A DNA stretch of 64,000 bases, from contig CP099652.1 in the NCBI GenBank assembly GCA_024123955.1, forward strand, positions 1,426,001 to 1,490,000, read 5' to 3'. Under the pieces are notes generated by a model. That model was not told where the DNA came from, made no database searches, and was given only the letters and a program-made list of their open reading frames with translations. A program made the translations under genes and the position numbers. Positions 41,200 to 42,686 of the stretch are shown here, piece by piece. The stretch comes from Oxalobacteraceae bacterium OTU3CINTB1. Lineage in GTDB: Bacteria > Pseudomonadota > Gammaproteobacteria > Burkholderiales > Burkholderiaceae_D. The first letter of the stretch is position 1. The number at the start of each line of letters is the position of its first letter.

Positions 41200-41214
41200 G
41201 GACAAACTTTGTCC
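41200..41214. promoter_or_regulatory. Perfect inverted repeat before sigma-54 promoter
   Basis: GGACAAA-C-TTTGTCC, 7-bp arms with a single central base, ending 7 bases before the -24 element. A partly matching element (GGACA...ACC) occurs at 42634-42648 before the second sigma-54 promoter. Confidence 0.5.
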
Positions 41215-41221
41215 AATCTTC

Positions 41222-41238
41222 TTGGCACGACAATTGCA
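41222..41238 (+). promoter_or_regulatory. Sigma-54 (-24/-12) promoter
   Basis: TTGGCACGACAATTGCA contains TGGCAC, a five-base spacer and TTGCA, an essentially perfect RpoN promoter. It lies 46 bases before the start of a small membrane-anchored protein gene with a strong AAGGAGG site. Confidence 0.85.
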
Positions 41239-41283
41239 TTGCTATTGAGAAAGGAAGAAGATCGAATCTTAAGGAGGAACGTT

Positions 41284-41466
41284 ATGAACGCAACTGAAGA
41301 CAAAGCAAAATCGAATCTGTTCCATGAATCGTCGGCGGACGAGCACCGTTCGCGCAGCGAGCGTATCGCCGCGCGTGGCGTGTCCCTGAGCAAGGTCAAG
41401 GGCAAATACCTGATTCCGCTGGTTGGTCTGGCCGTGCTGGCCTCGATGGCCTTCGCCCAAGGCTAA
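41284..41466 (+). CDS. Small tail-anchored protein under sigma-54 control (unknown)
   Basis: 60-residue protein with a polar, charged N-terminal two-thirds (Ser/Glu/Arg/Lys) and a single C-terminal hydrophobic stretch (YLIPLVGLAVLASMAFA) ending two residues from the stop. This resembles a tail anchor, or a signal-peptide-like segment misplaced at the C-terminus. AAGGAGG precedes ATG 41284. A consensus sigma-54 promoter lies directly upstream, so expression should depend on an enhancer-binding protein and a specific signal. No family recognised. Convergent with tsaD, five bases apart. Confidence 0.8.
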   Translation: MNATEDKAKSNLFHESSADEHRSRSERIAARGVSLSKVKGKYLIPLVGLAVLASMAFAQG

Positions 41467-41471
41467 ACTGA

Positions 41472-42512
41472 TCACACCACCTTGATCTCGTCCAAGGGCC
41501 AGCGCGGCCGTACGTTGAACGAATAATCGCGTTTGGCCGCGTCCGGGTTGATCATCAACCGCATCGCGCCCGCAAAGGCGATCATCGCACCGTTATCGGT
41601 GCAAAACTCCAGTTCCGGGTAGTACACCTTGAACTTCTTCTTGGTGGCGGCTTCGTTCAGCGAGGCCCGCAGCTGGGAGTTGGCCCCAACCCCGCCGGCA
41701 ATCACCAATCGCTTCAACCCCGTGTGCTTGAGCGCCGACACGCACTTGGCCGTCAGCACCTCGACGATCGCATCGACGAAGCCGCGCGCAATATTGGCCT
41801 TGTCCTGCTCGCAGATATTGGCGATGACCTTCTCGTCGTGATTCTTCACGACCGTCAGCACCGCCGTCTTCAGGCCGGAGAAGCTGAAATTGAAATCCTT
41901 GGTATGCAGCATCGGGCGCGGCAGCTTGTAGGCCGTCGGATCGCCGAACTCGGCCAGGCGCGAGATCGCCGGTCCGCCCGGATAGCCCAGGCCCAGCAGC
42001 TTGGCCGATTTGTCGAACGCCTCGCCGGCGGCATCATCCAGCGTTTCGCCCAGCAAGGTGTACTGGCCGACGCCGTCCACGCGCATCAGCTGCGTGTGAC
42101 CGCCCGACACCAGCAGCGCGATGAACGGAAACTCCGGCGGCTGCGACGCCAGCAGCGGCGACAGCAGATGGCCTTCCAGATGGTGCACTCCCAACACCGG
42201 CTTGTCCAGCGCCAGGCCGAGGCTGCACGCGACCGACGAACCCACCAGCAACGCGCCGGCCAGGCCGGGGCCTTGCGTGTAGGCGATGGCGTCGATGTCG
42301 GCCAGCGACTTGCCGGCGCCTTCCAGGGTCTGCGTCAGCAGCGGAATGGCGCGGCGGATGTGGTCGCGCGAGGCCAGCTCCGGCACCACGCCGCCGTATT
42401 CCTCGTGCATCGTCACCTGCGAATACAGGGCGTGGGAGAGCAGTCCGTGTTGCGTGTCGTACAGCGCAAGGCCGGTTTCGTCACAGGAGGATTCGACGCC
42501 GAGAACGATCAT
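41472..42512 (-). CDS. tsaD: tRNA N6-adenosine threonylcarbamoyltransferase TsaD
   Basis: 346-residue ASKHA-fold enzyme that transfers threonylcarbamoyl to A37 of ANN-reading tRNAs with TsaB and TsaE. MIVLGVESSCDET starts the protein; metal ligands are in HHLEGHLLSP; VSGGHTQL, GEAFDKSAKLLGLGYPGG and VAGGVGAN-type text (IAGGVGANSQLR) follow. ATG 42512 is chosen because the extension to 42602 has no homology. Essential gene in most bacteria. Confidence 0.97.
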   Translation of the reverse strand: MIVLGVESSCDETGLALYDTQHGLLSHALYSQVTMHEEYGGVVPELASRDHIRRAIPLLTQTLEGAGKSLADIDAIAYTQGPGLAGALLVGSSVACSLGLALDKPVLGVHHLEGHLLSPLLASQPPEFPFIALLVSGGHTQLMRVDGVGQYTLLGETLDDAAGEAFDKSAKLLGLGYPGGPAISRLAEFGDPTAYKLPRPMLHTKDFNFSFSGLKTAVLTVVKNHDEKVIANICEQDKANIARGFVDAIVEVLTAKCVSALKHTGLKRLVIAGGVGANSQLRASLNEAATKKKFKVYYPELEFCTDNGAMIAFAGAMRLMINPDAAKRDYSFNVRPRWPLDEIKVV

Positions 42513-42669
42513 GAAAGGGCTGCAAGGTGAAAGGGTAATCCGCCATTGTAATGGAAAGCGCGCCCGTTGACCTTGCGCCGCTGCACCACTCGATGCCGGC
42601 ACCGCACCGGCCGGGTGCGCGGTTTTGCCGTTCGGACAGTGTTTTACCTCGATTTAACGTATTTGCCGT

Positions 42670-42686
42670 GTGGCACCAGTTTTGCT
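42670..42686 (+). promoter_or_regulatory. Sigma-54 (-24/-12) promoter
   Basis: GTGGCACCAGTTTTGCT gives TGGCAC, a five-base spacer and TTGCT, matching the RpoN consensus. The downstream gene starts 38 bases later. Second such promoter within 1.5 kb. Confidence 0.82.

Follow-up and report, generated by a model that had tools for sequence, protein, structure and literature searches.

The closest described systems to the two genes reported here are the NtrC/sigma-54 regulon (glnA, glnK-amtB, ureD and nitrate-transport genes), the permease NrtB (TIGR01183), the NirD/NasG proteins and the cyanobacterial protein NirP1. The NtrC consensus is given for E. coli as TGCACCAnnnTGGTGCA (in the consulted part of PMC8743547); NasG of Paracoccus is a Rieske-type protein needed for nitrate and nitrite reduction (in the consulted part of PMC5424462); and NirP1 is a small protein under the control of a nitrogen regulator that targets nitrite reductase (in the consulted part of PMC10907346).

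We analysed a window of 64,000 nucleotides from Oxalobacteraceae bacterium OTU3CINTB1 (contig CP099652.1, positions 1,426,001 to 1,490,000; all unlabelled coordinates below count from the first letter of this window), in which two small genes, here gene1 and gene2, flank tsaD. Both share with the NtrC/sigma-54 regulon its -24/-12 element and a GCAC-N7-GTGC dyad, and rpoN and ntrC are present in the genome; they differ from that regulon in that their products are small proteins. Gene1 aligns with the N-terminal tail and first membrane helix of NrtB, including the motif RSERxAxxGxxL, but is a separate gene without the permease core (BPD_transp_1, residues 147-308 of the NrtB at locus L116). Long gene2 orthologues (genomes G003 and G020) pass the NirD model and carry C-x-H...C-x2-H, whereas gene2 of the window lacks the ligands and the loop, scores far lower and does not adjoin nirB. 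NirP1 resembles the function proposed below for gene1 and gene2, but it belongs to a different phylum and its regulator is NtcA (as described in the part of PMC10907346 consulted), and no relationship is claimed. No paper naming either protein was found among the open-licence papers searched.

Sigma-54 promoters and predicted NtrC boxes before gene1 and gene2

TGGCAC-N5-TTGC is matched exactly before both genes, as TGGCACGACAATTGC at 41223..41237 (+ strand) for gene1 and TGGCACCAGTTTTGC at 42671..42685 (+ strand) for gene2, and in each case the GG of the -24 and the GC of the -12 element are 10 bp apart. The original prediction had placed these sites at 41222 and 42670, one base off, and had put behind each a small gene with a good ribosome binding site. 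Both genes are as described: gene1 (41284..41466, + strand, 60 aa) follows AAGGAGGAA at 41271..41279 (+ strand), whose GGAGG is kept in the orthologue upstream alignment, and gene2 (42724..43038, + strand, 104 aa) follows GGAGGG at 42714..42719 (+ strand).

The number of motif matches with at most one mismatch in the window is not above chance (4 found vs 7.4 expected), and the genome-wide search proposed with the original prediction returned 16 exact sites against 15 with the reversed pattern, a count which by itself is likewise not above chance; conservation must therefore decide whether the promoters are real. In a first set of 61 genomes, gene1 was matched in 21 and gene2 in 29, 27 of the latter being members of the genus, and strand-corrected upstream alignments contained the -24/-12 element in 21/21 gene1 and 27/27 genus gene2 orthologues. 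Orthologues were then defined by protein similarity across 73 tsaD loci of the genus and their upstream regions were scored with the pattern TGGYAY-N5-YTGC. The element was present before 35/35 gene1 orthologues of the window's type (type A) and 47/47 gene2 orthologues, where the 35/35 rests on gene1 found by similarity, the separate search for gene1 ORFs having itself demanded a sigma-54 site. The alignment of orthologous upstream regions that had been suggested as a check thus bears the promoters out, and this conservation confirms both predicted sigma-54 promoters as genuine. The genome has one rpoN match over cut-off (G000:C1:989181). Other consensus sigma-54 sites of the genome lie at G000:C1 505544-, 2175111-, 5282197+, 6536264- and 6837166-; downstream of these five are genes that read as pilin-like, aldehyde-dehydrogenase-like, membrane-fusion-type (two) and BON-domain-like, and several of the sites are near NtrC-family activators.

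The element common to both upstream regions is the GCAC-N7-GTGC dyad, exact at both: predicted NtrC boxes are GCACGTTTTTAGTGC at 41127..41141 (+ strand), 81 bp 5' of the -24 element of gene1, and GCACCGGCCGGGTGC at 42604..42618 (+ strand), 52 bp 5' of that of gene2. Both fit the NtrC consensus given for E. coli (in the portion of PMC8743547 consulted). The stop codon of the ydjM-like gene 5' of gene1 falls inside the gene1 box. An exact box was present before 24/35 type-A gene1 orthologues (26/35 with at most one mismatch; reversed control, 0/35 exact) and 39/47 gene2 orthologues (44/47 with at most one mismatch; reversed control, 0/47 exact), and in 0.4-0.7% of shuffles; nine of the 35 type-A promoters lack it even when one mismatch is allowed. 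Elsewhere in the window's genome an exact box precedes ureD and the gene that we take, by its sequence, to be glnA, the promoter of the latter being weaker (2 mismatches), and boxes with 1-2 mismatches precede narK, nrtA and torF-glnK-amtB (torF likewise presumed by its sequence).

A composite pattern of the dyad, a spacer of 21-81 bp and TGGCAY-N5-TTGC has three matches in the window's genome, before gene1, gene2 and ureD, vs none for the reversed control. By per-genome counts it is found in 71/74 genus genomes, and the reversed control gave one match in one genome. A sample of 20 further composite sites, drawn from 17 genomes, comprised 15 before urease genes (13 ureD, 2 ureB), two before NrtA-like genes and three before other SsuA/urea-type substrate-binding-protein genes; Pfam or NCBIfam confirmed the genes at L352, L361, L363 and L365 (UreD by Pfam at L352 only), and the others were named by reading. 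With the NtrC model the genome yields 12 strong matches, one of them over cut-off, and it also holds amtB and a separate nirD. The activator common to gene1 and gene2 is very probably NtrC, as judged from the boxes. Of the earlier suggestion that the two genes form a shared RpoN regulon under an undescribed activator, the sharing of one activator is retained, and the word undescribed is not, since the GCAC-N7-GTGC box matches that of NtrC. Separately, a porin-like gene at L168 (4520-5323, minus strand) stands before glnK-amtB with a near-consensus NtrC/sigma-54 promoter, an arrangement that resembles the nlmA-glnK-amtB operon of Herbaspirillum (in the part of PMC3023670 consulted).

The perfect inverted repeat GGACAAACTTTGTCC (41200..41214, no strand assigned) adjoins the -24 element of gene1. 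A GGACA element had been claimed before both genes and read as the mark of their shared activator; the repeat at 41200 is indeed perfect, and at 42634 there is the pentamer GGACA only. The exact repeat recurs in 4/35 type-A orthologues, all closest relatives, and 11/47 gene2 orthologues have the pentamer no more than 70 bp 5' of the promoter, counts that rule it out as a shared operator. At the place of the repeat, 15/35 type-A loci have a TAGGC-N8-GCCTA dyad. The stretch from the NtrC box to the gene1 promoter (41160-41200) is conserved, with TGTGG-N8-CCACA in many species and TGTCT-N3-AGACA here, and may be a site for IHF or another regulator.

The nrtABC slot beside tsaD and the NrtB-like tail of gene1

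The conserved anchor between the two small genes is tsaD (41472..42512, - strand). A YdjM-type membrane protein gene (39882..41138, + strand) forms the left border of a variable slot that holds nrtABC or gene1, and a DAHP-synthase-like gene (43040..44098, - strand), which we take to be aroG, is the right border of the locus. The locus set covered 73 of the 74 genus genomes, G091 having no tsaD match at the cut-off; L324, without tsaD, was dropped. The nitrate ABC operon nrtABC lies between ydjM and tsaD, in the place of gene1, in 17/73 genomes; nrtA-nrtB-nrtC is found beside tsaD on the gene1 side also in 2 of 6 usable outgroup loci, and at L243-L245, which were chosen for their NrtB matches. 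In 47/73 genomes the slot is filled by a gene1-like ORF that a sigma-54 site precedes (type A in 35, the diverged type C in 12). In none of the 73 does nrtABC occur in the slot together with a type-A or type-C gene1, and in nrtABC loci the type-A and type-C queries match the N-terminus of NrtB only. The remaining nine of the 73 lack nrtABC, a gene1 ORF preceded by a sigma-54 site, and gene2 at the locus; in two of these nine a related ORF is present but has no strict sigma-54 site (type C in G070, type D in G097).

A sigma-54 site precedes nrtA in 17/17 genus nrtABC loci, and 9 of the 11 of these nrtA promoters scored for the NtrC box have it exactly (the L325 row of the promoter list was unusable, its NrtA being cut by a contig end). 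Compared by eye, gene1 and nrtA promoters are not similar beyond the NtrC/sigma-54 elements; a derivation of the former from the latter, which we weighed, was not established, the resemblance being confined to those elements. A midpoint-rooted tree of tsaD and aroG places type A in one clade (support 0.99) among nrtABC-bearing lineages, the splits adjoining that clade being weak (0.34 and 0.33) and its exact sister poorly resolved. The nrtABC of the window's genome is at 6.59 Mb, beside narK-nirB-nirD. The occurrence of nrtABC in the tsaD slot of relatives would account for the presence of a small Ntr gene on either side of tsaD. The two genes had been described as unlinked; the 73-locus comparison and the tree indicate instead that both come from an ancestral nitrate-assimilation locus around tsaD and are linked by that ancestry.

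Gene1 encodes a polar tail followed by one C-terminal membrane helix, and its named relatives are from Duganella, Rugamonas, Pseudoduganella and unclassified Oxalobacteraceae. The window's protein has no Pfam or NCBIfam match up to E 1 and, at 60 aa without the permease core domain, is not a permease. A profile search with gene1 matched NrtB N-termini from other genomes; seven matches were read and all are NrtB. Type-A gene1 aligned to 10 NrtB N-termini with an hhalign probability of 97.8 (39% identity over 54 columns from the Met), a set gathered partly through gene1-profile matches, so that an independent set chosen by position carries more weight: against 19 NrtB tails selected for lying beside tsaD the score was 56.9, where the best of 200 column shuffles reached 20.0, and against 14 nas-cluster NrtB tails from gene1-bearing genomes it was 19.1. 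In a single comparison, the window's protein matched the L116 NrtB of Rugamonas apoptosis, which is over the TIGR01183 cut-off, with a BLASTP E of 4e-8. Among 8 of the 35 gene1 sequences compared at the nucleotide level, gene1 of G010 and nrtB of G005 are identical at 28 of 29 nucleotides in the RSERIAAQG segment. Gene1 thus has the RSERxAxxGxxL tail and the first membrane helix of NrtB, and its description as a protein of no known family no longer applies.

The NrtB encoded beside narK-nirBD lacks the RSERxA tail in all 14 type-A genomes examined (14 of 35), and the 19 tsaD-linked NrtBs carry this tail or a close variant, so that, within this set, either NrtB or gene1 carries the tail and never both. 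Median dN/dS of type-A gene1 is 0.27 (347 unsaturated pairs of 595), which points to purifying selection.

Type C occupies the slot too and partly shares the RSER motif (probability 86.9 vs NrtB). A sigma-54 site is present before 10 of the 11 type-C genes found by similarity, the ORF of G070 lacking a strict site, and two of the 12 (G020 and G095) were found only through theirs. The NtrC box is exact before only 3/12, within what reads as upstream coding sequence. No nrtB was found beside nirBD in the two type-C genomes examined, G003 and G020. Type-C promoters (L297, L300, L303, L311 and L315) have a CCACGA-N11-TCGTGG-like dyad directly 5' of the -24 element and no NtrC box; a second dyad, similar to TTGTCT-N4-AGACAA, is close to the presumed start. 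Type-C gene1 promoters may respond to a different activator or to a repressor. In 6/17 nrtABC loci a type-D ORF follows the intact operon, between nrtC and tsaD; type D resembles type C and has no detectable similarity to NrtB, so that the gene1-like ORFs may have more than one origin. Types C and D fit an origin from the NrtB tail less well than type A does. The type-D ORF encodes a membrane protein of 55-57 aa with a near-invariant RTGIAAGLLALVGLSAWLLA end (L237 3594-3758, L238 3657-3824, L240 4107-4271 and L241 4560-4730) and is a candidate for a small protein that partners the nitrate transporter.

Gene2, a NirD/NasG-like protein without [2Fe-2S] ligands

The 104-aa product of gene2 is NirD/NasG-like, is devoid of the [2Fe-2S] ligand loops and ends in a conserved PAS-x-AEAALAG tail. 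It scores 17.3 bits against the NirD model TIGR02378, below the cut-off of 74.65, whereas the 136-aa orthologue of G003 reaches 77.1 bits and that of G020 is also over the cut-off. Orthologues of 136 aa in several lineages, those two included, carry the Rieske ligands C-x-H...C-x2-H, which are absent from gene2 of the window together with the loop between its two halves. Ligands are kept in 8/53 loci with gene2 and missing from the other 45 (counting G094, whose gene2 ORF was unrecovered). At least four independent losses are required on the tree if ligands cannot be regained; they were lost without shortening in G012, G034, G076 and the outgroup loci L321-L323, and other lineages lost the whole loop. 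Among 120 of 341 gene2 homologues listed, 21 have the ligands and 99 do not, some of the "long" forms being N-terminal mis-starts, and 113 of the 120 have the C-terminal PAS-x-AEAALA. The N-terminal part, WKxxCK...PRGxAWQxLPG, also stays conserved. Median dN/dS of the short form is 0.24 (411 pairs, 30 genomes), consistent with purifying selection. AlphaFold models of gene2 were of low confidence (pLDDT 62.3 and 60.7). Rieske ligands are also missing from the NirD that the nirBD cluster of the window's genome encodes. Gene2 probably descends from a Rieske-type NirD/NasG-like protein that lost its [2Fe-2S] ligands. Without them it would be unable to serve as a Rieske-type carrier in the manner of Paracoccus NasG (as described in the part of PMC5424462 consulted).

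Proposed role in nitrate use and alternative explanations

We favour, at a probability of roughly 70%, the reading that gene1 and gene2 are NtrC/sigma-54-controlled nitrogen-limitation genes that remained at an old nitrate-assimilation locus and modulate nitrate use. Induced by NtrC, they would modulate both the uptake and the reduction of nitrate. Under ammonium shortage, NtrC in its phosphorylated form would loop from the box to the sigma-54 polymerase and switch both genes on; at the inner membrane, gene1 would present a tail of the NrtB type in trans, gene2 would dock at the binding place of a NirD-like subunit without electron transfer through a Rieske cluster, and the two would jointly tune nitrate uptake and reduction. 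A more specific version is tentative, and we put it below even odds: the N-terminal tail and first helix of NrtB may have become a separate NtrC-induced mini-protein acting in trans on a relocated, tail-less NrtABC, with the cluster-stripped Rieske protein as a second, non-catalytic modulator. If this is true, nitrogen control recycled transporter and enzyme parts as dedicated regulators.

Gene1 and gene2 might instead be unrelated nitrogen-scavenging accessory genes under NtrC, the likeness to NrtB being convergence of a basic tail and a helix. The shortness of gene1, the lack of NrtB similarity in type D and the low-complexity stretches in many NrtB tails would all suit such convergence, but it sits poorly with an alignment score far above those of shuffled columns and nas-linked NrtB tails, with the near-identity of the G010 and G005 nucleotide segments, with types A and C occupying the slot of nrtABC and never accompanying it, and with the position of the type-A clade among nrtABC-bearing lineages, even with its exact sister weakly resolved; we regard it as unlikely. 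It is improbable that the two are functionless remnants in decay, left from the old nitrate locus and transcribed through NtrC: the median dN/dS of about 0.27 for gene1 and 0.24 for gene2, the promoters kept before every type-A gene1 and gene2 orthologue scored and the strongly conserved C-terminal tail of gene2 speak against decay, although both are shortened nitrate genes, gene2 has lost its ligands repeatedly, and nine of the 73 genomes have no nrtABC, sigma-54-driven gene1 ORF or gene2 at the locus.

That an enhancer-binding protein other than NtrC drives both genes appears highly improbable. The box fits the E. coli consensus (in the consulted portion of PMC8743547), and it is exact before glnA and ureD here and recurs before urease and nitrate-transport genes in relatives; on the other side stand the 12 strong NtrC-model matches with one over cut-off, the type-C promoters that mostly have no box, and the dyads near the -24 element that NtrC leaves unexplained.

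Under the favoured reading, in which both genes are NtrC-controlled modulators of nitrate use, what is new is their probable common ancestry in a nitrate-assimilation locus, one as a freed NrtB tail and the other as a NirD-like protein that has lost its cluster. In this bacterial case, small proteins whose function is not known would be traceable to larger parts, namely the tail of a permease and a Rieske-type protein; both small proteins keep the nitrogen-starvation switch, and the origin of regulatory small proteins becomes testable. The NrtB N-terminal tail and cluster-free NirD-like proteins may have a role in nitrate control in Duganella and its close relatives.
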